A DNA stretch of 45,280 bases, taken from the NCBI GenBank assembly GCA_031281585.1, contig JAITFE010000025.1:1-45280 (forward strand), in the 5' to 3' direction. The DNA is from Bifidobacteriaceae bacterium. GTDB lineage: Bacteria > Actinomycetota > Actinomycetes > Actinomycetales > WQXJ01. Below, in pieces: positions 1 through 19,500 of the stretch (position 1 is the first letter of the stretch; each line of letters opens with the position of its first letter). The notes below the pieces were generated by a model. That model was not told the origin of the DNA. It was given only the letters and a program-made list of their open reading frames with translations, and did not search any database. The position numbers and the translations under genes are program-made.

Positions 1-782
1 GGTACGGCGCGGAGCGGGTCCAGTCGGCTCTCGGCCGGGTGGCGGAGGTGCCGCTGGGCGGCACCGCCGTGGGGACGGGCATCAACACGCCCCAGGGCTT
101 CCCGCAGCGGGTGGTCGAACTGCTGGCGGAGGACACCGGCCTGCCGATTGTCGAGGCCCGCAACCACTTCGAGGCGCAATCCGCCCGGGACGCGTTGGTC
201 GAGTTGTCCGGCCAACTCAAGACCGTGGCCGTCTCGCTGATCAAGACCTGCAACGACCTGCGCTGGATGAGTTCCGGGCCCCGCGCCGGGCTGGGCGAGA
301 TCCACCTGCCGGACCTCCAGCCCGGCTCCTCGATCATGCCGGGCAAGGTCAACCCCGTTATTCCAGAGGCCACGCTGCAGGTCTGCTCCAGGGTGATTGG
401 GAACGACTCGGCGATCGCCTGGGGCGGGGCTTCCGGCTTCTTCGAGTTGAACGTCCAGATCCCGTTGATCGGGTCGGCGCTGCTGGAGTCGATTCGGCTG
501 CTGGCGGCGGTCTGTCGGCTCCTCGCCACCAAGGTGGTGGACGGCGTCACGGCTGACGCCGTGCACTGCCTGGAACTGGCCGAATCCTCGCCCTCGATTG
601 TCACGCCGCTCAACCGAATCATCGGCTACGAGGAGGCCGCGAAGGTCGCCAAGTACTCCGTGGCGCATGAGACCACGGTTCGCCAGGCCGTCTTGGACCT
701 GGGCCTGGTGGCCCAGGGAAAGATCACCGAAGCCCAACTGGATGCCGCGCTAAATGTGATGTCGATGACCCACCCCGCATGA
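1..782 (+). CDS. fumC: Fumarate hydratase class II, C-terminal part (5' truncated by window edge)
   Basis: This enzyme interconverts fumarate and L-malate in the TCA cycle. The reading frame is already open at base 3 and runs to TGA at 780-782, so the N-terminal part lies outside the window. The fumarase/aspartase signature [11 protein letters not shown] is present. The upstream block [16 protein letters not shown] and the downstream block [17 protein letters not shown] are typical of class II fumarases. The segment [15 protein letters not shown] also favours fumarase over aspartase, although the two families are close. The stop codon's last two bases are the first two bases of a perfect palindrome. 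A second, unrelated fumarase (class I) lies about 1.7 kb downstream on the other strand. Confidence 0.93.
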
Positions 783-1081: not shown

Positions 1082-2325
1082 GGTTTCAAGCCTAGCGAGG
1101 CCCCCGGCGCGGGTCCGGCCTCCGCTCCAACCGCCGCCCCTGCGGCTTTGGCCCCGAACGCGCCGCCCGCCACCCGCACCCGCAGTTGGTCGCCCCCGGC
1201 GACCTGCGCCGGGTCGGTGACCAGCGCGCCCGCCTTGGTCACCAGCGCGTAACCGCGGTCCAGCGTCCCCTGGGGCGACAACGCCACCAGCCGCCCGGAC
1301 AAGACGGCCAGTTTGGCTTCGGCGGTGCCCAGCCTTTGCCCGATGCCGCGCCGCCCGTCCGCCGCCAAACTCGCCACCTCCTGGGCCCGGCTGGCGATGA
1401 TCCAAGCCGGGTCTTTCAACGCCGGTCGCGTCCTCAAGGCTGCCAGCGTCTCTAGTTCGCGGTCCAGCCGCACGGCGAGGATTCGCTCCAGCCGCTCGGC
1501 GGCGCCGCGGACCAGGGCCGACTCGTCGGCCCAATCCGGGACAATCCGCTTGCCCGCGTCCGTGGGCGTGGCCGCCCGGAAATCGGCCACCAGGTCAAGC
1601 AGCGGCGAGTCCGGCTCATGCCCTATGGCGCTCACCACCGGCGTGGACGCGGCGGCCACGGCCCTGATCAGGGCCTCGTCGGAGAAGGGCAGCAGGTCTT
1701 CCAGCGATCCGCCGCCGCGGGCGATCACGATCACCTCCACGGATTGGTCCGCGTCCAGTTCCGCCAGGGCCGCCGTCACCTGCGCGGCCGCTGTCAGCCC
1801 CTGCACCGCCGTGTTCTTGACCAAGAAGCGGGCGGCGGGCCAGCGGCGCGTGGCGACCTCCACCACGTCATGTTCCGCCTTGGAGTCCCGCCCGCAGATC
1901 AGTCCGATCAGCGCCGGGGCGAACGGCAACGGCCGCTTGCGTTCCAGCGCGAACAGGCCCTCGGCGGCCAACTTGCGTTTGAGCCGCTCCAACTGGGCCA
2001 GCAACTGGCCCTCGCCCGCCAGGCGGACCTCGCGGACCTTGAACGACAGCCGGCCCTGTTTGGTCCAGAACTCGAACTTGCCGTTGACCACGACCCGCGC
2101 GCCTTCGGCCAACTCCAAGCCGACCAGCGCGGAGGCGGGCACCGAGATGTCGATCGACACGTTTTGGGCGGTGTCCCTGAGCACGCCGAAGGCCATGCCC
2201 GCGCGGCGGTTGAACTGCACCACCTGGCCCTCCACCCAGACGGCGCCGAGCCGCTCAACGTAGCCTTTCACCAGGTCGGAGACCCGGCTGACCGGCCACG
2301 GAGTCTCCGGGGACGAGTCGTTCAC
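1078..2325 (-). CDS. xseA: Exodeoxyribonuclease VII large subunit
   Basis: This is the 415-aa catalytic subunit of exonuclease VII. An N-terminal OB-fold (roughly residues 10-105, including [20 protein letters not shown]) binds single-stranded DNA. The catalytic domain shows the family motifs [34 protein letters not shown] and [22 protein letters not shown] long coiled helix region follows, with the C-terminal LDRGYALV motif near residue 360. I chose the GTG at 2325 because homology begins just after it; the frame stays open further upstream but that extension overlaps the class I fumarase gene and looks non-biological. Its TGA overlaps the xseB ATG. The 164 bp upstream, up to the fumarase gene, show no clear feature. 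Confidence 0.93.
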
Positions 2326-2489
2326 GCCGGCCCCGCCGTCTGGCGCCTTGAATCCCCGGCACCCCCGGTCCACGGGTCGGCCGCCCGGAGTCCGGACCGT
2401 CCGGCGTCCCGGGTCCCGGATCGCCGGCAGTTCGTTGGACTCGGCACGCGCTCCGGCGGCGAACCGGCCTGAAGCTCGGGGGCCACCGC

Positions 2490-4247
<1,758 letters not shown>

Positions 4248-4404
4248 GGCCAGGCTCCTTTGCTTCGAGGGTGTTCAGTTCCGCCGGGCCAATTCTCCCA
4301 TGCCCCCCTGACGACGCTGCCCGCGCTCGCGGCCTGCGGCGCTGCCCCCGTCGCTGGAACCGACGGGCGTTCGACGGGTCCGGCCGGGGTGAGAGACTAG
4401 GGGA

Positions 4405-5154
4405 ATGGCGAAAAGCACCGGCAAGGTTGTCCTTTGGCATTTGCTCATGGCGGGGGCCGCCCTGGGCACCCTGGCCGCCTGGCGCTGGCAGCGCCGCTGG
4501 GGCGCCACCGCCGCCGAACAACGCGCCGTTTTGCCTGGGGACGACCTGATTCCGCAGCCGTTGGCCCAGGCCACGCGGGCGATCGGCATTGACGCCCCGC
4601 CGGACGTGGTCTGGCCGTGGCTGAAACAACTCGGCTACGGCAAGGCGGGTTTCTACTCCTACGCCTGGTTGCAGCGGTTGGCGGGCCTCGACATTGAGAA
4701 CGCGGACGCCATTGTGCCCGAGTGGGCGGACATCGAGGTGGGAAGCACCGTCAACCTGGCCGAGGACTTGGGGCTGTCGGTGGCCTGCGCCGAACCGGAA
4801 CGCGCGCTGGTGCTGGTTGGGGCGGGCGACCCCCCGCCCGGAATGGGCCAGTTCGACTTCTCTTGGGCGTTTGTGCTTGAACCGGAGGGTCCCGTCGGCA
4901 CGCGCCTGGTGGTCCGGGAACGTTATTCCTGGTCAAGGTGGCTGGACGGGCTGACCATCAAAGCCGTGGGGTGGGTCAGTTTCGTCATGAGCCGCGCCAT
5001 GTTGCAGGGCATCCGGGCCCGCGCGGAACGCTCGTGGCAGGACCGCCTTGACGCCAGATTGGACGATGCCGCCGCCGACGTCCCCGAATCCCCTTCCGCC
5101 GTCGGGTCGGCCGGCGCTGGCGACCAGGCTGACGCGCCCCAGGCTTTGGCTTGA
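4405..5154 (+). CDS. SRPBCC-fold (polyketide cyclase/START-like) membrane-anchored protein
   Basis: This 249-aa protein begins with a short basic stretch and one hydrophobic segment (residues 8-25, [18 protein letters not shown]), then about 180 residues with the pattern of an SRPBCC ligand-binding fold. Typical elements are [18 protein letters not shown], the [18 protein letters not shown] loop, and the strands [11 protein letters not shown] and [11 protein letters not shown]. Proteins like this are common in Actinomycetota and bind small hydrophobic ligands; no substrate can be read from the sequence. The acidic, low-complexity tail (after residue 215) overlaps no other gene. It lies divergent to the class I fumarase gene across 157 bp and only 91 bp upstream of ispH, so the two may share a transcript. 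Confidence 0.75.
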
Positions 5155-5245
5155 GAACGCGGGGAAGCCGGTCGGCTTGGAAAAGGCGGGGCACGCGGGT
5201 GGGCCGCCGGACCGCCCGGCGGGCAAGGCTGGCGGGGGAGCGCTA

Positions 5246-6223
5246 GTGGGGAAGGTGCTGCTGGCCGCGCCGCGCGGCTATTGCGCGGGCGTGGACAGGG
5301 CGGTTGAGACGGTCGAGCGCGCTTTGGAGCTCTACGGCGCGCCGATTTACGTGCGCAAGGAGATTGTCCACAATCGCCATGTGGTGGACCGGCTGGCTGG
5401 CCGGGGCGTGGTGTTCGTGGCCGAATTGGATCAGGTTCCCCACGGGGCGTGGGTGGTGTTCTCCGCCCATGGTGTCTCCCCGGCCGTCCGGGAACAGGCG
5501 AAGGCGCGCGGCCTGCAGGTCATCGACGCGACCTGCCCGCTGGTCACCAAAGTGCACCGCGAGGTCGGCAAATTCGCAGGCCGAGGCTTCTCCATTGTGC
5601 TGATTGGGCACCAGGGCCACGAGGAAGTGGAAGGGACGGCCGGCGAGGCGCCGCAGGCCATCCAGGTGATCGACTCCCCGGCGGAGGTAGACGCGGTCGA
5701 GGTGCCAGATCCCGCCAAGGTGGCCTGGCTGTCCCAGACCACCTTGTCGGTCGATGAGACCATGGCGACCGTGGCCCGCCTGCGGGAACGTTTCGCGGAC
5801 CTGACCGACCCGCCCTCGGACGACATTTGCTATGCGACGCAGAACCGCCAAGGGGCCGTCAAACAAATCGCGGAGCGCTGCGACGTGGTGATCGTGGTCG
5901 GGTCCGCCAATTCATCCAACTCGGTCCGACTGGTCGAGGTCGCCCTTGGCCACGGGGCGAAGGCCGCCTACCGGGTGGATTCGGCGGCCGAGGTCGACCC
6001 TGGCTGGCTGGACGCCGCGGCCACGGTGGGGCTGACCTCGGGCGCCTCGGTGCCGGAGGTCCTGGTGGACCAGGTGCTGGACCGGCTGGCCGTCCTGGGC
6101 TTCGACCACCGCGAAGAGGTGGCCGCCGCCTCTGACGCGCTCGCTTTCGCGCTGCCGCGCGACCTGCGCAAAGACATGGAATCCGCGGGTCAACCGATCC
6201 CGCAGCTCCCGCACCGCGCTTGA
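5246..6223 (+). CDS. ispH: 4-hydroxy-3-methylbut-2-enyl diphosphate reductase
   Basis: IspH catalyses the last step of the non-mevalonate (MEP) isoprenoid pathway, reducing HMBPP to IPP and DMAPP with a [4Fe-4S] cluster. The three cluster cysteines are Cys13 (PRGYCAGV), Cys97 (DATCPLV) and Cys195 ([11 protein letters not shown]). Active-site motifs [11 protein letters not shown] (His125, Glu127), [18 protein letters not shown] and TSGASVPE are intact. The GTG at 5246 is chosen because GGGGGAG lies 5 nt upstream and homology begins at the next codons; 325 aa is the usual length. The frame is open further upstream, but that part is Gly/Pro-rich and overlaps the previous gene. Its stop lies 4 bp from the convergent nudC stop. 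Confidence 0.95.
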
Positions 6224-6227
6224 GCGG

Positions 6228-7016
6228 TCAGAACCAGCCCGCAAGCGCGCCCGCGCGCCACGACTCGACGGTTTGACGCGCCACGGAGTAATCCAGCGGC
6301 AGGGTGACCTGGCCCGAGGCGAGGGCGCGGGTGAGGGCGGGCCGGGTGAACCACACGGCATCGGTGATTTCGACCCCGTCAACCCTGATCTCGGTGGAAG
6401 TCGCCAGGGCCGCGAATGAGGCCATCAACGAACCGGGGAACGGCCAGGGCTGCGAACGGATGAAGCGCAATTCGGACACCTCGATCCCCACCTCTTCCAA
6501 GGCTTCGCGGCGCACCGCCGCCTCCAACGCCTCGCCCGCCTCCACGAACCCGGCCACCAGGGTGTAAAGGCCGTCCGGGTGGTTGGCGGCATGGGACAAC
6601 AACAGCCGTTCGTCCTGGTCCAGGATCGCGGTGATGATGCAAGGGTCGGTGCGGGGGAAAACCGCGCGGTCTTCCCGCACGCAGAGGTACCCCTCCCGTG
6701 CGGGGTCGGGTTCGACCGGGCCGCCGCAAGCGGGGCAGAACCGGGACTGATGGCGCCAATTGGCGACCGCGACGGCCCTCAACGCGGCTGGCTGGGTGGC
6801 CGGAGGCAGGGCGGGCAACGCCGCCCGCGCGGGCACCCAAACCGCGTCGGGGATCGCCAACGGCGAGGATCGGGATTCGGTCACGACGGCCGCAATGCCG
6901 TCGCCCACCGGGACTGGCGGAATGGCTGGGAGCGCCTGAGCGGCATCGGCCAACCGATGGCCGGACATCAACAAAAGGGGGGCGGTGCCGGGAATCACGC
7001 CGATGACCTGTGCCAC
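6228..7016 (-). CDS. nudC: NADH pyrophosphatase-type Nudix hydrolase (NudC family)
   Basis: NudC enzymes hydrolyse NAD(H) to NMN(H) and AMP and can remove NAD caps from RNA. A complete Nudix box (GX5EX7REUXEEXGU) spans residues 156-178, and the NudC-specific motif SQPWPFPGS follows at 188-196. The zinc-ribbon zone shows CPAC (94-97) and Cys112, but the fourth Cys of a normal ribbon is absent (LCVRED). The N-terminal domain is short for the family. The start is uncertain: GTG at 7016, GTG at 6998 and ATG at 6968 are all in frame. I took 7016 because GGGGAG stands just ahead of it, although the spacing is tight. It is convergent with ispH. Confidence 0.85.
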   Translation of the reverse strand: MAQVIGVIPGTAPLLLMSGHRLADAAQALPAIPPVPVGDGIAAVVTESRSSPLAIPDAVWVPARAALPALPPATQPAALRAVAVANWRHQSRFCPACGGPVEPDPAREGYLCVREDRAVFPRTDPCIITAILDQDERLLLSHAANHPDGLYTLVAGFVEAGEALEAAVRREALEEVGIEVSELRFIRSQPWPFPGSLMASFAALATSTEIRVDGVEITDAVWFTRPALTRALASGQVTLPLDYSVARQTVESWRAGALAGWF

Positions 7017-7087
7017 TCTCCCCAATTTACTGTCATGTCGCGCGGGCGGGGGTGGGCGACAGGCCCAGGGCCAGCCGGCGGGCGGGG

Positions 7088-7867
7088 CTACCAGGTGGCG
7101 TCGCCGCGCGTGAGCACGTCCGTGCCCCCGTCCACAAACACGACCTGGCCGCACAAGTGCGTGTTCTCCTCCGAGGCCAGCCAAACCAGCAGCCGCGCGG
7201 GCGCTGTGGGCGGCGCGGCGGGGCCGTTGAGCGGCATGGGCGTCGATTTGAAGGCCAATTCGCGTCCCTCCGGGGTGGACAAGAGCTGCTTTGTCATGGG
7301 CGTTTCCACCACCCCCGGGGCGATCGCGTTGAGCGGAATGGACTGGCCCGCCCAGCGCCTCTTCGGGGCCGAGCGCCGCACCCAGCGCGCCAACGCCTCC
7401 TTCGACGAAGAGTAGATCAAGTACCCCAAACGCGGATCCGCTTCGAGTTCCTTTGCCCTGGCCAGAGCGGCCGGTTCGTCGCCGGCCAACATCATGTCCA
7501 CCAAGGCCGGGTCGGCCGGATGCAGACTGGCGGTCGAGGACACGCCCACCGCCCTGGGCGCCGGCGAACCCGCCAGGTAGGGCCGCAACCCTTCCAGCGT
7601 GGCCACCATTCCGAAGTAGTTGACCGATGCCGTCAGCGCAGTTGGCGCCGAAATCCCGGCCACGGCGATTATCCCGTCCAGCCGTCCCCCCGCCAGTTCT
7701 CCCGCCAGGTCGACCAACGCCATGCGCCCGTCCGCCGTGGCCAGGTCGCAATCAATGTCGCTGCCTTTGACGTCGGCCCCGATGACCCGGTGGCCTTGTT
7801 CCGCCAACAGCGTCGCTGTGGCCTGGCCGATTCCCGATCCCGCCCCGGTGACCAAGTAGGTCCGCAT
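7088..7867 (-). CDS. Short-chain dehydrogenase/reductase (SDR)
   Basis: This 259-aa protein is a classical SDR, an NAD(P)(H)-dependent oxidoreductase. The Rossmann motif TGAGSGIG is at residues 7-14, and Asp32 after the second strand suggests a preference for NAD. The catalytic set is Ser (GVSSTAS, about 110-111), Tyr152 and Lys156 (YSSSK). The C-terminal segment NAIAPGVVETPM and the end CGQVVFVDGGTD are family-typical. The layout resembles 3-alpha(20-beta)-hydroxysteroid dehydrogenase-like SDRs, including a long insert between the Ser and Tyr blocks, but the substrate cannot be assigned. It lies 71 bp upstream of nudC on the same strand and divergent from the MFS gene across 160 bp. Confidence 0.88.
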   Translation of the reverse strand: MRTYLVTGAGSGIGQATATLLAEQGHRVIGADVKGSDIDCDLATADGRMALVDLAGELAGGRLDGIIAVAGISAPTALTASVNYFGMVATLEGLRPYLAGSPAPRAVGVSSTASLHPADPALVDMMLAGDEPAALARAKELEADPRLGYLIYSSSKEALARWVRRSAPKRRWAGQSIPLNAIAPGVVETPMTKQLLSTPEGRELAFKSTPMPLNGPAAPPTAPARLLVWLASEENTHLCGQVVFVDGGTDVLTRGDATW

Positions 7868-8027
7868 GTTTTCCCCCGATGTGTGCTGGGGCGCGGTCGG
7901 CTGTGACCGCGCCGTTCATTCCATTCTGCGTTGCGCGCGCGCTTTTCCCAAACCGGCCAAGGGACCTTCGGCCCAGGTGGTCCTACGACATGCGCCGTTC
8001 ACCCGCGAGGCCTATGATTTTGAACTT

Positions 8028-9479
8028 ATGCGTCCGTACCTCGACCTGCTCAAAATCCCAGGTGCGGCCGCGTTTTGCGCGGCTGCGCTGGTGGCGCGCG
8101 CGGGCGGGGCGATGATGGGGATCGGGACGGTCATGATGGTCTCCACCGAGTACCACAGCTACGCGCTGGCGGGCAGCGTTTCGGCCGCGAATGTCATCGC
8201 TTGGGCAGTCGGCACGGCCGTGTTGTCGAATCTGGTCGACCGTTACGGGCAGCGGCGGGTGATGTTGCCGGCGGCGCTCGTGTCGGCGGGGACGCTGGCC
8301 GTGCTGGTGGTCTTCGGCATTTTGCACACTCCGGACTGGGCCTTGTTCGCCCCGGCGGTCATCTCCGGCGCCACGGGCGGCGCCCCTGGTGCCATGGTCA
8401 GGGCACGGTGGAACGTGGTGGTCAAGAGCGCCCGCCAGTTGCACACCGCGTTTTCTTTGGAATCCACACTGGATGAACTCTGCTTCGTGGTCGGGCCGGT
8501 CGCGGCCACATTCTTGGCCACCCAGGTCATGCCGAGCGCCGGATTGATCGCGCCGGTCATCCTGGGCGTGGTCGGCTCGCTCTGGTTCTACTCAATGCGG
8601 GCGACCGAACCGCCGGTCTTGGGCCGGAAACCGCATGTCGCCGAACCGCGCCGACAGGATGAGGCCCAGCCGCCGGACTTGGCGACGCACCCCGCCGAAG
8701 ACGCGCCCGCCGGGCCTTCGGCCGCCCCGCCCGCTGAGCGGTCGGGCGGGACTGGGTCCCTCCCGGAAGGGGCGGTGGCGGGAGCGGCGGGCGGGTTGCC
8801 GCACGGCGCTGCGGATGAGTCGCGCGGGGTGCGGCGTGGGCTCGCGCGTGGCGCGCGCACAGCGGCCGCGGCTGCGTCCCGGTTGACGGCCGAGTTGATT
8901 CTGGTCATGCCGGGCGTCGCCCCGGTGGCGATCGTCACCGTGATGGTGGGCGCCTTGTTCGGGGCGTGCGACGTGACTGTCGTGGCCGCCACCGACGCCT
9001 GGGGTGTGAAGCCGTTGTCCGGAGCGGTCCTGGGCGCGATTTCCCTGGGCTCCGCGCTGGGCGGCTTGGCGTACGGCTCGCGGAACTGGGTGAGTTCGGT
9101 GGCCCGGCGCTGGGTGATCTGCCTGGGGCTGCTGTCGCTGGCCTGCGTGTCGGTTCTGTTCGCGTCCGATCCGCTGTTCCTGAGCCTGGTCGGATTCGCG
9201 GCTGGTCTGACCATCGCGCCCACCATGATCAACCTCAACGCCTTGATGCAGTCGTTGGTGCCGACCAACCGGTTGACCGAGGGGCTGGCCTGGGTCGGAA
9301 CGTCTCTGGGGATTGGCGTCTCCGCCGGCGCGGCCCTGGCGGGTCAGCTGATCGAGAAGGTCGGCTACCAGGCCGGTTTCGTCGCCATGATGACGGCGGG
9401 ATTCGTCGGCACCGCCTTGGCGCTGGTCCGGGCCCGTGCGGTGGCCCGCACGGCGCGCGAAGTGGCCGCAGGCCGGTAG
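8028..9479 (+). CDS. MFS transporter
   Basis: This 483-aa integral membrane protein has about 12 hydrophobic segments in two halves, as in the major facilitator superfamily. A motif-A-like loop, DRYGQRRVMLP, lies between helices 2 and 3. The halves are joined by an unusually long Pro/Ala/Arg-rich cytoplasmic loop (roughly residues 200-290), followed by AELILVMPGVAPVAIVTVMV. The C-terminal half ends in a short basic tail. The substrate is unknown; actinobacterial relatives are annotated only as putative efflux carriers. I use the ATG at 8028 because the membrane-protein homology begins there; the frame is open 54 codons further upstream but that part overlaps the SDR start region and is not membrane-like. 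Confidence 0.85.
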   Translation: MRPYLDLLKIPGAAAFCAAALVARAGGAMMGIGTVMMVSTEYHSYALAGSVSAANVIAWAVGTAVLSNLVDRYGQRRVMLPAALVSAGTLAVLVVFGILHTPDWALFAPAVISGATGGAPGAMVRARWNVVVKSARQLHTAFSLESTLDELCFVVGPVAATFLATQVMPSAGLIAPVILGVVGSLWFYSMRATEPPVLGRKPHVAEPRRQDEAQPPDLATHPAEDAPAGPSAAPPAERSGGTGSLPEGAVAGAAGGLPHGAADESRGVRRGLARGARTAAAAASRLTAELILVMPGVAPVAIVTVMVGALFGACDVTVVAATDAWGVKPLSGAVLGAISLGSALGGLAYGSRNWVSSVARRWVICLGLLSLACVSVLFASDPLFLSLVGFAAGLTIAPTMINLNALMQSLVPTNRLTEGLAWVGTSLGIGVSAGAALAGQLIEKVGYQAGFVAMMTAGFVGTALALVRARAVARTAREVAAGR

Positions 9480-9703
9480 CGCCGTCTTGGCGCGGGCGGG
9501 GGCAGTCTTTTCGGGCCGCCCCCAAGCGATCCGTCCACTCTCTCGGCGTTCCGGATTCCAGTCGCAAGTCGGATTGCTCCGTGCCTTCTCGCTGATCCCC
9601 CTCGCCCGGCGGCGGATCCCGCGCCACCGGTTCATCGACTGGCGGATTCTCCTACCCCCTCGCCGCCGACTGGCGGATCTTGCGCCGCCGGCTCCGTCCC
9701 CGA
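9480..9703. other. Non-coding stretch after the MFS gene
   Basis: No convincing gene is present here. I see only small imperfect repeats: the string GACTGGCGGAT occurs twice (around 9637 and 9668) next to CCCGCGCC / TTGCGCCGCC blocks. It leads directly into the half-site array. Confidence 0.6.
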
Positions 9704-9734
9704 CCAGATGAAAACCTACATTCGCCGCCCCTGA

Positions 9735-9824
9735 CCGCCCCTGACCAGATGCGAACGTACACTCGGTGCCGACTGTACGTTTTTGTCTGGCTCTCCGGCC
9801 CGAGTGTACGTTCCTGTCTGGCCC
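9735..9824. repeat. 90-bp direct repeat, copy 1
   Basis: Bases 9735-9824 are identical to 9953-10042 (offset 218 bp). Each copy contains one forward and two reverse half-sites of the array. Perfect identity indicates a recent local duplication or gene conversion. Confidence 0.9.
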
Positions 9825-9952
9825 GGACAGTCGAATGTACGTTCCTGTCTTGGGGCCAATTCCGTATTCCAAGGTCACGGGCTCGAAGGAGGGCCGACCG
9901 GCAGATGAAAACCTACATTCACCGCCCCCAACCAGATAAGGGCTTACACTCG

Positions 9953-10042
9953 CCGCCCCTGACCAGATGCGAACGTACACTCGGTGCCGACTGTACGTTT
10001 TTGTCTGGCTCTCCGGCCCGAGTGTACGTTCCTGTCTGGCCC
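9953..10042. repeat. 90-bp direct repeat, copy 2
   Basis: This is an exact copy of 9735-9824. The copies diverge abruptly at both ends: after GCCC the next base is C here and G in copy 1. Confidence 0.9.
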
Positions 10043-10350
10043 CGCAGGTCGGGCGGGCAAGACGCCCTGGCGCCGAGAAGGGCGGCGCTATTGGCCGTGG
10101 CCGGATTGACCTCAAACCGCCTCGGGGACCCGTTTCAGGTCAATCAGGCCGCCTCGCGCAAAGAATCCGCTTCGGGCTGAAGCGGGTTCCGGATCGTCGA
10201 CCGATGGGCTTTGTGCCTCCGCCTGTGGCCAGTGGCGACTGCTCCAACGCCTCCCCGAGTGGCGGGTTCTGGACGGGGCGGGTTGCGGGCTGAGCGCTGG
10301 TGCGGTGCCGGTCGCCGGGGTGGCCTTGGGCGCGGTGGTTTTGCTGCGGA
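10043..10350. other. Non-coding stretch upstream of the first giant surface gene
   Basis: I find no gene here. A small hairpin (CCGCTTC, loop GGGCT, GAAGCGG at 10167-10185) is visible, without a T-tract. The promoter of the surface-protein gene should lie in the 3' part of this stretch, but I cannot pick a convincing -35/-10 pair. Confidence 0.5.
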
Positions 10351-10439
10351 TGGAATATGCGGGGCTCTGGGCGGGTTATTGCGGTGCAGCAATTCGTCGT
10401 CATGCGGCCGTTCTCGGGCCGCCGGAAGGGTTCGTGTTC
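10351..10439 (+). promoter_or_regulatory. Conserved 89-nt leader of surface gene 1
   Basis: The block from TGGAATATGCGGGGCTC to the start codon is closely similar to 16471-16559, and the distance to the ATG is exactly 89 nt in both. Shared strings include GGTGCAGCAATT, TGCGGC, GGGCCGC and the ribosome binding site region (GGAAGGG here, GGGAGGG there). Similarity falls away upstream of TGGAATAT. Differences are not concentrated in third codon positions and there are compensating 1-nt indels, so this looks like a non-coding regulatory leader or promoter-plus-UTR. The mechanism is unknown. Confidence 0.6.
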
Positions 10440-13400
10440 ATGCGTGGTTTCTCGGGTGTTGGTCGTGGTTTGGGTTTTGCGGTGTTGGGATTGTCGCTGG
10501 TGTTGGGGTTGCTGGCGGCAGCCATCCCAGCGCTGGCGGAGGGTTCTGACCCGGAGTTTGTACGAGTCGAGGTGCCGGTGACGGTACAGGTCGTTGATTC
10601 CGGGTCCCCCAATGGCGGCGGCGGCGGTTCGGGCGAGATCGGCGATGGCGGCCAGCCCGGCGAAGGCGGCTCGGGCGACGGTGAGATTGGCGATGAAGGC
10701 TCGGGCGGTCAGGATGGGCTCCCTGGGGACGGCGGCCAGCCTGGCGACGGCGGTTTGGGCGACGGCGGCGCTGATGGCGATGGCGGTTCGGCTGGTGAAG
10801 ATGGGCTGCCTGGTGAAGGCGGTCAACCCGGCGATGGCGGCTCGGGCGAAGCTGGCGATGGCGGTTCGGGTGACGGGGACGCTGATGGTGAGGGCGGTTC
10901 GGTTGGCGCGGATTCGTCGGTTGGGGTGTTGCCGTTCACTGGTTCCGGGTTGTGGGCTGCTGGTTTGGCGGTGTTGCTGGTCGGCGCGGGCGTGACGATT
11001 CTGGTTGTGAGGGCCGGGACTGGCCGGGGCGTGCGGCTGGCGGCCGGGGTTCTTCTGAGCGTGGGCGTTGTCGCCGGCGTGGGCGGCGTGGTGGCCGCGT
11101 CGGCGGAGCCCGCAGGGCCCTCGGCGGCGGACGGCGTGGTTGTAGTGGTGGACAAGGGCGTGTCGTTGACGGGCCGCGCGACCGTGGGGTTGGATGTGGC
11201 CGGGCTGGGCTCGAAGGTGGTCGGGGTGGACCAGGCTATCGAGGCCGGCTTTGCCGAGTTTTCGGTCAACGGTGTGGGCGTGGGCGCGTCGGCCTCGCGC
11301 GTCGCGGAGGTCGCGGACAAGGACTTCGACGGCCGGTTGGAGCTTGTTCTGGAGGTCGCGGTCGACCCGGACTTGCCGGTGGGGACCTATCAGGCCGCCT
11401 CGGTGGTGGAGGCCTTCGACGAGCGCGTGGTGGTCGAGGCAGTGGAGGCCGCGTTCGCCCCGAAGCAATACGACGGGACGGATGCCCTGCTGCCAACGGC
11501 GGCCCCGGTGGTGGTCGGAGTCGCCGATGGCGATGAGGTGGCGCTGGAGGGTTTGGGATTCTCGGCCGCGGGCGTTGAAGCCGCCGCCGGGCAGTCCGTG
11601 ACGGCGCGCGCGGATGGCTTGTCCGGCGAGGACGCCTGGCGCTACCGGCTGGCCAGCCCCGTGTTGCGGGTGGTGGCCCCTGGCGGGTCGGATGAGGACG
11701 GCGAGGAGCGGGCCCCGGCGGTGGCCGCGATCGTCCCGAGGGAACTGGTGGTGGCCGGTCTGGCCGCCGAGGACAGGGTTTACGACGGCACCGACGCCGT
11801 GTCGTTGACCGGGCGACCGGCGCTGGGCGGCGTTGTCGGCGACGACAAGGTGTTCGTGACCGGCACGCCGTCCGCCAGGTTTGAGTCGAAGGACGCGGGC
11901 GCGGACAAGGCCGTGGCGTTCGATCTGGGCTCATTTGCCCTTGAGGGCGCGGACGCGGCGAATTACGTGCTGCGCTCGCCGCAGTTGACCGCGTCGGTCG
12001 CCCCGAAGCCCTTGGGGGTGACCGGTTTGGCCGCCCAGGACAAGACTTACGACGGGGCCGTCGAAGCCACCATCACCGGCGATGCCGTCTTGGTCGGCGT
12101 CGAGGCGGCCGACCAGGTGACGCTCGGCGGCGTTCCGAAGGGCGAGTTCGACTCGAAGTCCGCCGGCGATGGCAAAGCCGTCGCCTTGGACGCCGATGCC
12201 GTGCGGCTGGCGGGCGCCGACGCCGGCAACTACACGTTCGACCTGCCGGGGCTGACGGCATCGGTCACGCGGCAAACTCTGACGGTGGCCGGTTGGACGG
12301 CCCAGGACAAGGTCTACGACGGCACCCAAGACGCCCACTTCTCCGGGACCGGATCCCTGGTCGGCGTGGTGGCCGGGGACCAGGTGTCGCTGACGGGCGC
12401 GCCCTTCGGCGCGTTCGACTCGAAGGCGGCTGGCGCGGACAAGCCCGTGACGGTGGACCCCGCATCGGTCGGCCTGGCTGGCGCAGACGCCGCCAACTAC
12501 GTGCTGGACGTGGCTGGCGAGCACACGGCATCGGTCGCCGTGAAAGAAGTGACCGTTGACGGTCTGGCAGCCGAGGACAAGACTTACGATGCCGCCGTGG
12601 ACGCCTCGTTCACGGGCGCGGCCGTCTTGGTCGGCGCGGTGACCGGCGACGACGTGGCGGTCCAGGGAGCGCCGTCAGGCCGGTTCGACTCGAAGAACGT
12701 GGGCGACGTGAAGGTGGTGACCCTGGACGAGGGCTCGCTGACCCTGGCCGGCGAGGACGCCGCCAACTACGCGCTGGCCCTGCCGGAACTGACCGCGGCG
12801 GTCGCCCCGAGGGAACTCGGGGTGGCCGGTTTGGCCGCCGAGGACAAGATCTACGACAGAACCGAGGCCGCCTCGCTGACGGGCGCCGGGTCCCTGGTCG
12901 GCGTGGTGGACGACGACCTGGTGTGGCTGGCGGGCGCGCCGGTGGGCGTGTTCGACTCCGCCGCCGCCGGGGAGGGCAAGACCGTCACGGTCGACCCGGA
13001 CGCGTTGAGCTTGGCCGGCGAGGACGCACAAAACTACACGTTGCGACTGCCCCAACTGACCGCGTCGGTGGCCCCGAAGGGCTTGAGCGTCGCGGGCTTG
13101 ACGGCCAACGGGAAGGTCTACGACGGGACGGCGGACGCCTCGTTCGCGGGAGAGGCCTCGCTGACGGGCGTGGTGGACGGCGATGCCGTCTCGCTCGAGG
13201 GCGCCCCGGTCGGCGCGTTCGACTCGGAGGACGCCGGCGCCGACAAGGCTGTGACGCTCAGCGCCGATTCGTTCGCGCTAACCGGCGAGGACGCGGCCAA
13301 CTACACGCTGGGCCTGCCCGAACTGCGGGCGTCCATCACCCCGAAGCGGGTCGACGTGACCGGCTTGACGGCGGTGGACAAGGTCTACGACGGTTCGGCG

Positions 13401-16331
13401 GACGCGGTGTTCGCCGGTTCGCCGGTGCTGTCCGGGGCGGTTGGGCAGGATCCCGTGTGGCTGACCGGGGTTCCCTCGGGCTGGTTCGGGTCCGGGGACG
13501 CCGGAGCCAACAAGACGGTGACTTTGGATCCGGCTGCGCTGCGGCTGGACGGCTCGGGCGCTCCGAACCACGTGCTGCACCTGCCCGGCTTCACGGCGTC
13601 GATCATTCAAAAGGACTTGGCCATCACAGGCTTGACGGCCGTGGACAAGACGTATGACGGAACCGCCGCCGCTGTGTTCGACGGCACGCCGGAGTTGACG
13701 GGTGAGGTGGGCCAGGACGACGTGTCGCTGACCGGGACGGCGCGGGGCGTGTTCGCCTCGGCGGCCGCTGGCGGCGCCAAAGCGGTGACGTTGAACCCGG
13801 GCGCTTTCGGGCTGGCGGGCGGCCATGCCGCCAACTACGCCTTGACCTTGCCAGAGTTCTCGGCCACCATCACCCCGCGAGAGCTTGTCATTGCGGGCTT
13901 GACCGCTGAAGACAAGGCTTACGACGGGAACGAGGACGCCTCGTTTGCGGGGACGGCCGCGCTGGTCGGCGTTGTCGAAGAGGATTCGGTGTCGCTTGAT
14001 GGCGCGGCGCGGGGCGTTTTCGACTCCATGGAGGCTGGCCAGGACAAGGCCGTGAAACTGGATGCGGACTCGTTCGCGTTGTCCGGGCCCCATGCCGCCA
14101 ATTACACGCTGAGCCTGCCGGAACTGACCGCCTCGATCAACCCGAAGGCCTTGACGGTCACCGATTTGACGGCCGTCGACAAGATCTACGACGGCACGGC
14201 GGCGGCTTCGTTCACGGGCGCGCCGGCCTTGGCCGGGGTTGTGGGTAAGGACGAGGTCCGGCTGGTCGGCTCGCCCGCCGGCCGGTTCGACTCCGAGGAA
14301 GCGGGGACGGGCCGGACGGTCACCTTGGACTTCGACTCGGTTTCCCTGGTAGGCGAGAAGGCCGGCAACTACCGGCTGGACGCGGCTGGCCCCTACACGG
14401 CATCGATCAAGCCGAAGGAACTCACGCTGGAGGGCTTGACCGCTGAGGACAAGACCTACAACGGGACTGCGGACGCCCGGTTTGCGGGTCAGGCCACGCT
14501 GGCAGGCGTTGTCGAGGACGATGCCGTCTGGCTGGAAGGTTCTCCGGCGGGCGCCTTCGACTCGAAAGACGTCGGAGAGGGCAGGGCGGTCACGCTGAGG
14601 GCGGGATCTTTGACCCTGTCCGGCGGCGACGCCCCCAACTACGCGTTGAGGCTGCCCGTGATGGCCGCTTCGATATCCCCGCAAGTGGTGACGCTCGAAG
14701 GCTTGACGGCCGAGGACAAGACCTATGACGGGACTGCGGACGCGACGTTCGCGGGCGAGGCGACCTTGTCCGGCGTGGTGGACGGCGAGACCGTGTCGGT
14801 CAAGGGCACGCCGCGCGGGCTGTTTGACTCGAAGAACGCCGGGGACGGCAAGACTGTGACGTTTGTGGCCGCTTCCGTCGAATTGGACGGTGCGGGCGCG
14901 GGTAACTACATCCTCGGGGTGGGCGGGCAATACACGGCGTCGGTCGCCAGGCGGCCTGTGACCTTCGAGGGCTCCGTGAAGGCCACGCGCGATCTGGACG
15001 ACACCGATCCGGCGAGCTTCGATCTGCGTGTTGAGGACGAGTCCTCATTTGGGAACGTGCTGCACGGCGAAGCCTTGTCGCTCAGCGCGGATGCGGTCTC
15101 GGCCGTTGTGCCCGCTGGCGACGCGTTCGGGATCGAGGGGACCTCTCAGGGGGTGGTGACCGGCCAGTTCGGCCTCTCTGCAGGTGCCGGAGCTTCTGTC
15201 GACAACTACACGTTGGCGGAGCAGCCGACCGCACAAGTGACCATTGCGGCAGCGCGAATCGTGTTGCGAGCCGAGATCACCGCCGGCGGCCAACAGGTGA
15301 AGCTGAACAAGTACTTCGCCAACGGGTACACGGTGGACTGGGGCGACGGAACCCCGGTCGAGCAGGCACCCGAATCCGCGACCGGTTCCCTGATCCATGT
15401 CTACGACGGCGCCAGGGACGGGGGCTACAAGATCACGCTCACGTCTTTGTTGACCGGGGAGCAGCGGTGGACTTTCCGGAACGGCTCAGCGCCTTTGGTT
15501 CCAAAGTCGGGAACCACGGCCGCGCGGATGGTTGTTAAGAAGTTTCCAAAGCTTCGGGCGTTCATGTCGAGCCAAACGCGAGCTGACGACCACTTCTTCC
15601 GCAGTTTCAACTACAGCGGAGCTTTGGCCGAGTTAGCGCCGGGATCATTCGACACCAGCGACATAACCTGGGCGGGAGATCATTTCTTCGACGACTTCAA
15701 CCTCAATGGCAAACTGGAACGGCTGCCCGAGGGCTCTTTCGACACGTCGGCGATCACCAGGGCGGGCTCCTATTTCTTCGCCTACTTCAACTACTACGGC
15801 GTGTTGACGGGGTTGCCGGAAGGGTCGTTCGGCACGAGCAGTATCACCAGCGCCGGGTTCAATTTCTTCGTCGCGTTCAACTACTACGGCGCGTTGACGA
15901 AGCTGCCGGAAGGGTCGTTCGACACGAGCAGGATCACCAGCGCCGGGTCCGAATTCTTCGCCGCGTTCAACTACGCCGGCGCCTTGACGGAATTGCCGGC
16001 TGGTTCTTTCAACACCCGCAGGGTTCTGCAGGTCGGATCAGGGTTCTTCGCCTATTTCAACTATCGCGGGCAACTGGCCACCCTTCCGGATTCTTTCAGG
16101 TGGCCGGCACTGGACAAAACGACAGCGAGCCAGGCGGGAAATTTCCAGGAGGCTTTCAACAGTTCGATCCGCATAAGCCGTGCGGCCAGCGAGATCATCG
16201 GCGGTTGCGCCACTCCCGACACGGACCGCAACACCTTCAGCGACAACCAACCGGGCGTGGATGAGGTAGACGACAACTGGAGGCAGTCGCCGCGCGAGTC
16301 GGAAGGGAACGAAGAGAGGGACACCCAGTGA
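10440..16331 (+). CDS. Giant surface protein 1: signal peptide, internal LPFTG signal, YDG/MBG repeats, PKD-like and BspA-like LRR repeats
   Basis: The product has 1963 aa. The start follows GGAAGGG by 9 nt. Order of parts: signal peptide (1-33, ALA|E); segment VRVEVPVTVQV; Gly/Asp/Glu-rich stretch (about 56-160); LPFTG at 164-168 with a hydrophobic helix (171-190) and Arg191; second hydrophobic helix (200-221) with ASA|E at 222/223; a domain containing one degenerate YDG unit (around 345); 12 YDG/MBG-type repeats of about 89 aa (about 430-1505; YDGT motifs at 448 to 1429); a TVDWGDGT PKD-like domain (about 1605-1710); six 30-aa repeats of the FFxxFNYxGxLTxLPEGSF type (from 1718); and a tail with one conserved Cys. 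There is no C-terminal sorting signal. The role is probably adhesion or surface display. It is paralogous to the next gene. Confidence 0.9.
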   Translation: MRGFSGVGRGLGFAVLGLSLVLGLLAAAIPALAEGSDPEFVRVEVPVTVQVVDSGSPNGGGGGSGEIGDGGQPGEGGSGDGEIGDEGSGGQDGLPGDGGQPGDGGLGDGGADGDGGSAGEDGLPGEGGQPGDGGSGEAGDGGSGDGDADGEGGSVGADSSVGVLPFTGSGLWAAGLAVLLVGAGVTILVVRAGTGRGVRLAAGVLLSVGVVAGVGGVVAASAEPAGPSAADGVVVVVDKGVSLTGRATVGLDVAGLGSKVVGVDQAIEAGFAEFSVNGVGVGASASRVAEVADKDFDGRLELVLEVAVDPDLPVGTYQAASVVEAFDERVVVEAVEAAFAPKQYDGTDALLPTAAPVVVGVADGDEVALEGLGFSAAGVEAAAGQSVTARADGLSGEDAWRYRLASPVLRVVAPGGSDEDGEERAPAVAAIVPRELVVAGLAAEDRVYDGTDAVSLTGRPALGGVVGDDKVFVTGTPSARFESKDAGADKAVAFDLGSFALEGADAANYVLRSPQLTASVAPKPLGVTGLAAQDKTYDGAVEATITGDAVLVGVEAADQVTLGGVPKGEFDSKSAGDGKAVALDADAVRLAGADAGNYTFDLPGLTASVTRQTLTVAGWTAQDKVYDGTQDAHFSGTGSLVGVVAGDQVSLTGAPFGAFDSKAAGADKPVTVDPASVGLAGADAANYVLDVAGEHTASVAVKEVTVDGLAAEDKTYDAAVDASFTGAAVLVGAVTGDDVAVQGAPSGRFDSKNVGDVKVVTLDEGSLTLAGEDAANYALALPELTAAVAPRELGVAGLAAEDKIYDRTEAASLTGAGSLVGVVDDDLVWLAGAPVGVFDSAAAGEGKTVTVDPDALSLAGEDAQNYTLRLPQLTASVAPKGLSVAGLTANGKVYDGTADASFAGEASLTGVVDGDAVSLEGAPVGAFDSEDAGADKAVTLSADSFALTGEDAANYTLGLPELRASITPKRVDVTGLTAVDKVYDGSADAVFAGSPVLSGAVGQDPVWLTGVPSGWFGSGDAGANKTVTLDPAALRLDGSGAPNHVLHLPGFTASIIQKDLAITGLTAVDKTYDGTAAAVFDGTPELTGEVGQDDVSLTGTARGVFASAAAGGAKAVTLNPGAFGLAGGHAANYALTLPEFSATITPRELVIAGLTAEDKAYDGNEDASFAGTAALVGVVEEDSVSLDGAARGVFDSMEAGQDKAVKLDADSFALSGPHAANYTLSLPELTASINPKALTVTDLTAVDKIYDGTAAASFTGAPALAGVVGKDEVRLVGSPAGRFDSEEAGTGRTVTLDFDSVSLVGEKAGNYRLDAAGPYTASIKPKELTLEGLTAEDKTYNGTADARFAGQATLAGVVEDDAVWLEGSPAGAFDSKDVGEGRAVTLRAGSLTLSGGDAPNYALRLPVMAASISPQVVTLEGLTAEDKTYDGTADATFAGEATLSGVVDGETVSVKGTPRGLFDSKNAGDGKTVTFVAASVELDGAGAGNYILGVGGQYTASVARRPVTFEGSVKATRDLDDTDPASFDLRVEDESSFGNVLHGEALSLSADAVSAVVPAGDAFGIEGTSQGVVTGQFGLSAGAGASVDNYTLAEQPTAQVTIAAARIVLRAEITAGGQQVKLNKYFANGYTVDWGDGTPVEQAPESATGSLIHVYDGARDGGYKITLTSLLTGEQRWTFRNGSAPLVPKSGTTAARMVVKKFPKLRAFMSSQTRADDHFFRSFNYSGALAELAPGSFDTSDITWAGDHFFDDFNLNGKLERLPEGSFDTSAITRAGSYFFAYFNYYGVLTGLPEGSFGTSSITSAGFNFFVAFNYYGALTKLPEGSFDTSRITSAGSEFFAAFNYAGALTELPAGSFNTRRVLQVGSGFFAYFNYRGQLATLPDSFRWPALDKTTASQAGNFQEAFNSSIRISRAASEIIGGCATPDTDRNTFSDNQPGVDEVDDNWRQSPRESEGNEERDTQ
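11737..14952 (+). repeat. Twelve tandem YDG/MBG-type repeats (~267 bp each)
   Basis: Each unit reads roughly GLTAEDKxYDGTxDAxFxG, then LxGVVxGDxVxLxGxPxGxFDSKxAG, then LxGxDAANYxLxLPxLTAS. The YDG motif is degenerate in units 4 (YDAA), 5 (YDRT) and 11 (YNGT). The spacing averages 89 codons. These beta-rich modules are known from bacterial adhesins and extracellular fibres. Confidence 0.88.
15591..16130 (+). repeat. Six tandem 90-bp (30-aa) BspA-like leucine-rich repeats
   Basis: The consensus is FFxxFNYYGxLTxLPEGSFDTSxITSAGS. A partial seventh unit (NFQEAFNSS) follows. The pattern is that of BspA/DUF285-like surface LRRs, in which short leucine/aromatic repeats stack into a solenoid. Confidence 0.85.
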
Positions 16332-16559: not shown

Positions 16560-19500
16560 ATGCGTGGGTTGTCGGTCGCGGCACGGGGTTTGGGCTTCGC
16601 GTTGCTGGGGTTGTTGTTCTTCTTCGCCTTGTTGGTCGCGGCTGCGGCCCCCGCGCAGGCGGATGGATCCGATGCGGGCTCGTTGCAGGTCGAGGTGCCG
16701 GTGACGGTCCAGGTGATCGACTCCGGCCAGCCGGAGGAGGGCGCGACCGGCGGCGACGAGGGCGAGGCGGAGGGCGGTCTGCCCGACGGCGGCGACAGCG
16801 GGGCTGAAGGCGAAGATTCTACGGCCGGGGGCGAGGACGCGGCCGGTGGCGACGGCGACCCGGCGGAAGGCGGCGAGGATTCGACCGCAGGTGGCGAAGA
16901 TGCGACTGGTGGCGAAGACGCGACGGGTGGCGAGGATGCGACTGGCAGCGAGGACGCGGCCGATGGCGACGGTGCGGCCGGTGGCAGTTTGCCCGGTGGC
17001 GATGGTCCTTCGGCTGGAGTGTTGCCGTTCACCGGGTTTGGTTGGGACGCGGCCGCCTTGGCTTTGCTGCTGGTGGCCGCGGGGCTCGCGGTTTTGGTCG
17101 CTCGGCGGCGCCCGGCACGCGGCGTGCGGGTGGCGGCCGGGGTGCTCCTGGGCGTGGCTGTGATGGCTGGAGTTGGCGGGGTGGTGGCCGCGTCGGCGGA
17201 GCCGGCCAGCGACGACGGCCTGGTGGCCGGCTCTGCGGGGACGGCTGGCGACGGCGGCGTGGCGAGCGCGGACCGGGTGGTTGTGGTTGTGGACAAGGCG
17301 GCGTCCCTGTCGGGGGCCTCGGTCGTCGGTTTGGATGTGGCGGGGTTGGAGTCGAAGGTGGTCGGGGTGGACCAGGTGGTCAACGCCGACTTCGAGGCGG
17401 AGTTCTTGGCGGACGGCAAGGCTGTGGGCGGTTCGCCGGTGCGTGTCGTCCAGGTGGCGGACAAGGACTTCGACGGCCGGTTGGCGGTCGACCTGGAGGT
17501 GACGGTCGATGAGGGCCTGCCGGTGGGGGTGTATGAGGCGGTTTCGACGTTCGTGGCCGTTGACGACCGGGCGGTGATCGGCGCGGTCGAGGCTGCGTTC
17601 GCGCCGAAGGAGTACGACGGGACTGATGTGCTGGTTCCGGCGGGGGAGCCGGTGCCGGTAGGGGTGGCCGCCGACCACGACGTGGTGTTGGACGGCCTAG
17701 GCTTCACCGTCGGCGGGGTTGACGCGGCGGCTGGCCTGCCGGTGGCGGGCCACGTGGAGGGTTTGTCCGGGGAGGACTCGTGGCGTTACCGGTTGGCGGC
17801 CCCGGTGTTGAAGGTTGTCGCCCCCGGGACCGGGGATGGCGGCCAGGACGGCGGCGACGGCGGCGGCGACGGCGTGGACGGCGGCGAGGGCGGCGCGGAG
17901 GCGCCGGTGGTGGTCGCGGTTGTGCCGAGGGAACTTGAGGTTGTCGGTTTGTCGGCCGAGGACAAGGTCTACGACGGGACTGACGCTGTCTCATTAGCGG
18001 GCACCCCGGTGCTGTCCGGGTTGCTCTCCGGCGATGACGTGTCGTTGGCCGGATCGGCGTCCGCCACGTTCGAGTCAAAGGACTCCGGGAGCGGCAGGAT
18101 CGTGGTCGTGGACCGGGGTTCGTTGCGGTTGGAGGGCACGGACGCTTCGAACTACGCGCTGCGGGTCCCGCAGCTGCGGGCCGACATCGCGCCGAAAACG
18201 TTGGCGGTGGCGGGTTTGGCCGCCCAAGACAAGGATTACGACGGGTCCGCGGACGCGGCGATCGCCGGGACGGGGTCCTTGGTCGGCGTGGTCGAAGGCG
18301 ACCAGGTGTCCCTGGCGGGCGCCCCGGCCGGCCGGTTCGACTCGAAAGCCGCAGGCGAGGGCAAGACGGTGGCGCTGGACGCCGACTCGCTCGGCCTGGC
18401 GGGCGCGGACGCCGCCAACTACGCGCTGGAATTGCCGGAGTTGACTGCGGCCATCGCCCCGAAGCGGTTGGCCGTAGAGGGCCTGGCCGCTCAGGACAGG
18501 GTGTACGACGGCTCTGTGGTCGCCTCGTTCACCGGCTCGGCGGTGTTGGCGGGCGTGGAGGCCGGCGATGCCGTCACGCTCACGGGCGCACCGGTCGGCA
18601 CGTTCGCATCGAAGGAGGTGGGCGACGGCAAGACCGTCACCCTGGACGCCGACTCCGTTGGCCTGGCGGGCGCGGAGGCTGCCAACTACGTGTTGGACAC
18701 GGCGGGCGACTACACGGCATCGGTCACCCCGGCGGTGGCGACCGTCGAAGGTCTGACGGCCGAGGACAAGATCTACGACGGGTCGCGGGACGTTGCGTTC
18801 GCGGGCGAGGCTTCGCTCGCCGGGATTCTGGACGGCGATGCCGTGTCGCTCAAGGGCGCCCTGTCAGGCGTTTTCGCTTCGAAGGACGCCGGGAACGACC
18901 AGGCCGTGACGCTCGACGCGGACTCGTTCGTGTTAGCCGGCGCGGACGCCGACAACTATCTGTTGAGCCTGCCCGAATTGCGGGCCTCGATCGCCGCGAA
19001 ACGCGCCGATGTGGCCGGTTTGACCGCTGTGGACAAGGTCTACAACGGGTCTGCGGAAGCCATGTTCGCCGGGTCGCCGGTGCTGGTCGGGGCGGTTGAG
19101 GGAGACCTGGTGCACCTGGCCGGGGCGCCGTCCGGAGAGTTCGACACAAGGGACGCCGGGGCGGGGAAAACCGTCACGCTGGCGCCAGGCGCGTTTCGGC
19201 TGACCGGCGGCGACGCCCCCAACTACGTGCTGCGCCTGCCCGCCTTCGAGGCGTCGATAGCCCAGAGGGAAGCTGCGCTCGGGGGCCTGACGGCCCTCGC
19301 CAAGACCTACGACGGCTCCCGTGACGCCCAGATCGCGGGGAAACCCGTGTTGGCGGGCGTGGTCGAGGGTGACGTGGTGTCGGTCCAAGGCGCGGCCGCA
19401 GGGGCGTTCGACTCCAAGAACGTCGGTCAGGGTAAGACTGTGACGCTGGAGAAGGGGTCTTTGACCCTGTCCGGCGCGCATGCGGGCAACTACGCGCTGG

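Follow-up and report, generated by a model that had tools for sequence, protein, structure and literature searches.

An LPxTG-type sorting signal near the N-terminus of a long repeat protein is part of a module that is, by alignment, conserved in ten proteins from five genomes of one actinobacterial family, in the order signal peptide, strand, linker, L[PA]xTG, helix, loop, helix and Ig-like domain. In surface protein 1 (P1), encoded in a window of 45,280 nucleotides (the whole stretch of DNA analysed), sequence comparison indicates that this arrangement is a conserved module and neither a fusion accident nor a separate internal gene; judged by substitution rates, purifying selection acts on the module in those paralogue pairs that were compared. 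P1 and its neighbouring paralogue P2 may well be, on a reading given roughly even weight, N-terminally wall-anchored adhesin-like proteins in which a strand on the wall-linked piece would hold the repeat protein non-covalently.

Layout of P1 and P2

P1 (10440-16331, + strand, as are all features of P1 and P2 below) is translated as 1,963 residues from an ATG at 10440, with a Shine-Dalgarno-like GGAAGG (10424-10429) 10 bases upstream. A signal peptide, read by eye from the sequence (residues 1-33, 10440-10538, ending ALA|E), is followed by the conserved beta-strand VRVEVPVTVQVVDS (residues 41-54, 10560-10601), which is the proposed donor strand, and by an acidic, Gly-rich linker (residues 55-163, 10602-10928). 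The LPFTG sorting motif (residues 164-168, 10929-10943) leads into hydrophobic helix 1 (residues 169-190, 10944-11009; best 18-residue mean Kyte-Doolittle 2.56, and a helix in the AlphaFold2 model), a basic loop, RAGTGRGVR, predicted to be cytoplasmic (residues 191-199, 11010-11036), and hydrophobic helix 2 (residues 200-222, 11037-11105), whose end, ASA|E223, is a candidate signal peptidase site 59 residues after the motif. Beyond it lie an Ig-like domain resembling donor-strand pilins, placed by alignment (residues ~232-334, 11133-11441), a YDG repeat array of 13 stretches (Pfam E 2.6e-196; approximately 11450-14920, from Pfam and from matches of the YDG part of an alignment along the window) and C-terminal LPxGSFDTSxI repeats (approximately 15600-16200), which are PARCEL-like at a TIGR02167 E-value of 0.0011, below the cut-off.

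A preliminary description of this DNA had already recognised the LPFTG motif, the two helices, the loop and the ASA|E end of helix 2, and translation reproduces them at exact coordinates, with ASA ending at 11105. The long repeat part was put there at 1,740 residues without a C-terminal anchor; translation gives 1,741 residues after helix 2, and the C-terminus of the translated sequence has neither an anchor nor a hydrophobic tail. The P1 sorting signal is not protein-terminal, unlike that of C-terminal LPxTG (PF00746) proteins, and neither P1 nor P2 is among the PF00746 matches in their own genome (E <= 1). The topology proposed at that stage, with the N-terminal part outside, one helix running in, the loop inside and the next helix running out, is consistent with the basic loop and the conserved motif. 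What was overlooked is the beta-strand at residues 41-54, and the presence of the same feature in P2.

P2 (16560-22214; 7 YDG stretches), likewise defined by translation, has the N-terminal module in the order of P1, with the strand LQVEVPVTVQVIDS (16683-16724), LPFTG at residues 155-159 (17022-17036), helix 1, the loop RRRPARGVR and helix 2 ending ASA|E (17037-17198), and an Ig-like domain placed by alignment (17277-17585). A Pfam scan gave YDG domains (PF18657) at 636.9 bits in P1 and 371.8 bits in P2, against a gathering score of 25, together with a sub-threshold PKD_4 in P2, and no M26 catalytic domain in either protein. The neighbouring genes in the window are housekeeping genes, encoding the exonuclease VII large subunit, fumarase, LytB and an MFS transporter, as well as GDP-mannose 4,6-dehydratase and an LCP-family protein.

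Just upstream of P1, two near-identical intergenic copies (9746-9825 and 9964-10045) carry the inverted arms GTACACTCGG and CCGAGTGTAC; their 30-base core occurs exactly twice in the genome when up to 3 mismatches are allowed, both times here. A related locus, L025 (contig C34 of genome G013, 2252-13147), holds three tandem module-bearing paralogues on one strand, and P1 and P2 are likewise in tandem; module-bearing genes seem to expand through local duplication.

Conservation of the N-terminal module

The search for relatives used first a 224-residue query beginning downstream of helix 1 and later profiles built on the downstream domain. Over the Ig-like domain, eight proteins match in addition to P1 and P2; they come from four other genomes in the same family as the source, and in all eight an L[PA]xTG motif, a helix, a basic loop and a second helix lie ahead of that domain. 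Seven of these motifs are LPxTG (LPVTG, LPLTG or LPYTG) and one is LAATG; the search, which relied on sequence downstream of the motif, did not select for it. In every one of the ten members the loop between the helices holds 3-6 K/R and 0-1 D/E, and helix 2 ends in A/S-x-A just before the Ig-like domain. The LAATG protein was found by its Ig-like domain alone, without YDG repeats, and still has the strand, both helices and an ALA|A end. It is the clearest case, a stand-alone member (L070:3504-4685, +) that ends shortly after the Ig-like domain.

In a core alignment of nine sequences, with 23-68% identity to P1, six of the 63 ungapped columns are invariant, four of them the motif's L, P, T and G and the other two an A-G pair. 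Each of the nine rows was excised at the motif, which aligns the motif columns by construction, and the sequences share descent; the alignment is best read as showing the constancy of the motif and not as an unbiased test. Substitution rates in three paralogue pairs (P1/P2, L025b/c and L025a/c, in that order) point the same way along the module. The dN of the linker is 0.557, 0.607 and 0.627, that of the LPxTG-helix-loop-helix core is about 3-8 times lower at 0.192, 0.102 and 0.081, and the strand, which is only 11-14 codons long, has the lowest dN in all three pairs (0.105, 0.041 and 0.041) and is the slowest-evolving segment. Conservation is lowest in the acidic linker (dN/dS of 0.54, 0.83 and 0.51), whose length is also very variable: between strand and motif the members have about 14 to about 149 residues. 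In two relatives, L022 and L023, the linker is only a few residues long and the strand nearly abuts LPVTG; judged by eye, L022 has no clear signal peptide in frame and L023 has a weak one.

When public genome contigs were scanned with L025c, relatives were found in two MAGs labelled Bifidobacteriaceae; a scan of such contigs with P1 gave no match, and no relatives were found in viral contigs. Outside the family, the core profile gave only partial matches, mostly of the C-terminal type, across 297 genomes of the order, and the Ig-domain profile gave nothing at E 0.001 in 395 genomes of the class, with relatives possible beyond this sample. The ten members, all of one family, come from draft and fragmented assemblies, that of the source included. 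Weak Pfam matches to the core (SepZ, DUF2628, CcmH and others) fall below the cut-off and were rejected as identities, as they look like membrane-helix composition. Also rejected, as Ig-like relatives, were L113, L117 and L111 (genomes G015 and G017), which match at chance level (E 0.04-0.22) and in which the module is absent from the stretches read; these are secreted proteins of related genomes with a WxL-like beta-sandwich end (DWSLTGKVSDF...LGW).

The strand, the Ig-like domain and the proposed tether

The strand is recognisable in 10/10 proteins by its mostly alternating hydrophobic residues, as in P1, in DLDVVVNVIDS and in IDLPVVVHVVDS. AlphaFold2 models of P1 and of one relative (L075), built on an alignment of six sequences only and with overall means of 50-60 pLDDT, give the strand a pLDDT of 86-87 (about 86 in P1) and the Ig-like domain mostly 85-94 (about 90 in P1), whereas the linker and the two helices mostly stay under 50. 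VIA-align found the domain-swapped pilin EcpA (3qs2) as the best match of both the L075 and P1 models, with Z of 9.1 and 8.2, just slightly above the level given by common arrangements, and with 124 and 120 residues aligned over ranges 4..222 and 7..299; it was followed by BPSL1626 and then by CfaB and CooA for both models and FimG for one. Foldseek also placed EcpA first for the L075 model (E 9.1e-5), and for the P1 model it gave no match with E <= 0.001 and EcpA was not the best. The strand is counted as part of the EcpA match because the aligned lengths exceed the approximately 100 residues of the Ig-like domain. A lone strand predicted with confidence is likely to be paired, and the only confident partner is the Ig-like domain. 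Docking of the strand on that domain, in cis or in trans, is thus suggested by local confidence, by the strand that DSSP assigns and by the ranges aligned.

Under the proposed mechanism, the signal peptide would export the N-terminal part with the strand, helix 1 would stop transfer, and helix 2 would act as an internal signal that re-exports the long repeat part. Signal peptidase would then cut at ASA|E and sortase at LPFT|G, linking the N-terminal part to the wall, where its strand would complete the Ig-like domain with which the repeat protein begins and keep that protein on the wall non-covalently, its C-terminus pointing outward. The piece on the wall would, in the shortest relatives, amount to hardly more than the strand (~15 residues) and LPxT. 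Such capture would explain why a C-terminal anchor is missing, why the motif is invariant and why the linker varies freely while the strand is strictly conserved. More tentatively, and at somewhat less than even confidence, the sorting signal may sit inside a single Ig-like domain of the donor-strand-pilin kind, with its first strand before LPxTG and the rest after the helix hairpin, so that the strand on the wall captures the repeat protein once sortase and signal peptidase have cut, and this may be general for N-terminal LPxTG proteins.

LPxTG sorting presumably works in the source organism, because its genome encodes ordinary C-terminal sorting signals with the motif 36-45 residues from the stop. 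A class E sortase is encoded as well (240.7 bits against a cut-off of 160); no sortase was recognised among the scanned window proteins, the two sortase matches of the genome being on other contigs. A counter-point to the mechanism is that the preference described for class E sortases is LAxTG and the one clear sortase found is of class E, whereas the motif is LPFTG in P1 and P2; that of L070 is LAATG. Further sortases may be missing, since the MAG is 95% complete. The second match (L073:4243-5667, +) scores below the class E cut-off, is extended by a long N-terminus rich in Pro and by additional hydrophobic stretches at the C-terminus, and shows no TLxTC catalytic motif; it is possibly a degenerate sortase.

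Neither sortase nor signal peptidase need cut if the two helices simply anchor one chain as a hairpin, with the N-domain and the repeats both outside. The topology and the basic loop agree with such an arrangement, and the strand could equally pair in cis with the Ig-like domain, yet a hairpin requires no invariant L, P, T and G, and these are invariant in nine sequences with cores as diverged as those above, while the sole exception to the motif, LAATG, is a sorting motif of the class E type in its own right. This alternative is considered unlikely, if worth weighing.

It is distinctly unlikely that an acidic peptide on the wall and a repeat protein released from the cell arise as products independent of each other. 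The two sites do look suitable for cutting and a C-terminal anchor is absent, but the acidic peptide would consist of the least conserved segment, reduced to a few residues in L022 and L023, and the conserved piece is the strand of predicted fold, which free release leaves unexplained. The preliminary description had proposed a two-product precursor of this kind; cleavage into two products fits the conserved L[PA]xTG, the basic loop and A/S-x-A, while the repeat protein probably does not end up free, because the conserved strand is predicted to fold and its only confident partner in the model is the first domain of the repeat protein, so that the two products would stay together.

If sortase alone cut, at LPFT|G, the wall would receive the N-terminal peptide and the repeats would stay membrane-bound through the remaining G-helix-loop-helix. 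The conserved motif is in keeping with this, and evidence for the signal peptidase site is weak, as A/S-x-A is easily found in Ala-rich sequence and the cut site remains a candidate. The A/S-x-A end nevertheless precedes the Ig-like domain in all members, and the mature chain of the M26 precedent begins well past the motif, which makes a sortase-only cut quite improbable. Finally, two genes joined by chance, by assembly error or by a lost stop, with helix 2 as a signal peptide with its own start, are scarcely credible: an in-frame GTG lies in the loop of P1 and P2 (...GRGVR...), but no start codon is conserved there (most G013 and G016 copies have none), no Shine-Dalgarno-like sequence precedes the P1 GTG and the order is kept in ten loci of five genomes. 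A separate gene starting in the loop was rejected on the first of these grounds and a fusion or assembly error on the last. The own start for helix 2 that the preliminary description had named as a refuting case is thus not supported.

How the bulk of N-terminal LPxTG proteins such as IgA1 protease is retained after the sortase cut is, to our knowledge, not settled; the key experiment on IgA1 protease is reportedly that of Bender and Weiser in 2006. A limited open-access literature search did not find a strand tether from a split domain. The wall-anchoring of P1 by strand capture would make its family a compact system for this retention problem with a testable answer, namely that the cut-off strand belongs to the next domain, and the strand and Ig-like domain would lend themselves to use as a two-part display tag. 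Sorting signals at the N-terminus also occur outside M26 proteases and outside Firmicutes, so predictors that accept LPxTG at the C-terminus only would miss such proteins.

Comparison with known systems

An N-terminal LPxTG is itself already known. The preliminary description knew of no family with this order, and that view does not hold, as streptococcal M26 IgA1 protease and ZmpB, ZmpC and ZmpD have an N-terminal LPxTG (PMC9637739, PMC6722419, PMC7939560, PMC2225412). M26 IgA1 proteases have a conserved N-terminal LPXTG and are cleaved 56 residues downstream of it (PMC9637739), compared with the 59 residues to ASA|E in P1, and the mature S. pneumoniae enzyme comprises residues 154-1963 (PMC7695701). 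The location of the motif in M26 proteases has been called atypical (PMC6722419), ZmpB and ZmpC also carry it (PMC7939560), and repeats occur in the exported part of M26-type proteins (PMC2225412). P1 and P2 share with the streptococcal and Gemella M26 proteins (IgA1 protease/ZmpA, ZmpB, ZmpC and ZmpD) a signal peptide, an LPxTG placed close to the N-terminus with transmembrane segments in the same N-terminal domain, and a very large, exposed C-terminal part with repeats. Unlike them, P1 and P2 lack the M26 domain, belong to Actinomycetota and not Firmicutes, come from a genome with a class E sortase, and have an Ig-like domain and YDG repeats after the helices. Judged by motif, hydrophobic segments and large exported C-terminal part, they are proteins of the N-terminal LPxTG layout and not members of M26.

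The sorting signal of P1 resembles the ordinary C-terminal anchor (Gram_pos_anchor, PF00746) in its LPxTG, hydrophobic helix and basic residues, and the genome uses the same motif variants, but in P1 the signal is followed by about 1,800 residues and by a second, re-exporting helix. YDG (PF18657) and PARCEL/Liste_lipo_26 proteins have repeats like those in the C-terminal 1,700 residues of P1, the PARCEL match being below cut-off; these models cover the repeats alone and none covers the N-terminal module. The closest parallel to the predicted fold is with the Gram-negative chaperone-usher donor-strand pilins (EcpA, CfaB and FimG), in which a separate N-terminal strand completes an Ig-like domain, a likeness that comes from model matches and not from sequence similarity. 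In P1, however, strand and domain are encoded by one gene and split by a sortase signal and two helices, and the proposed role of the strand is tethering, not polymerisation.
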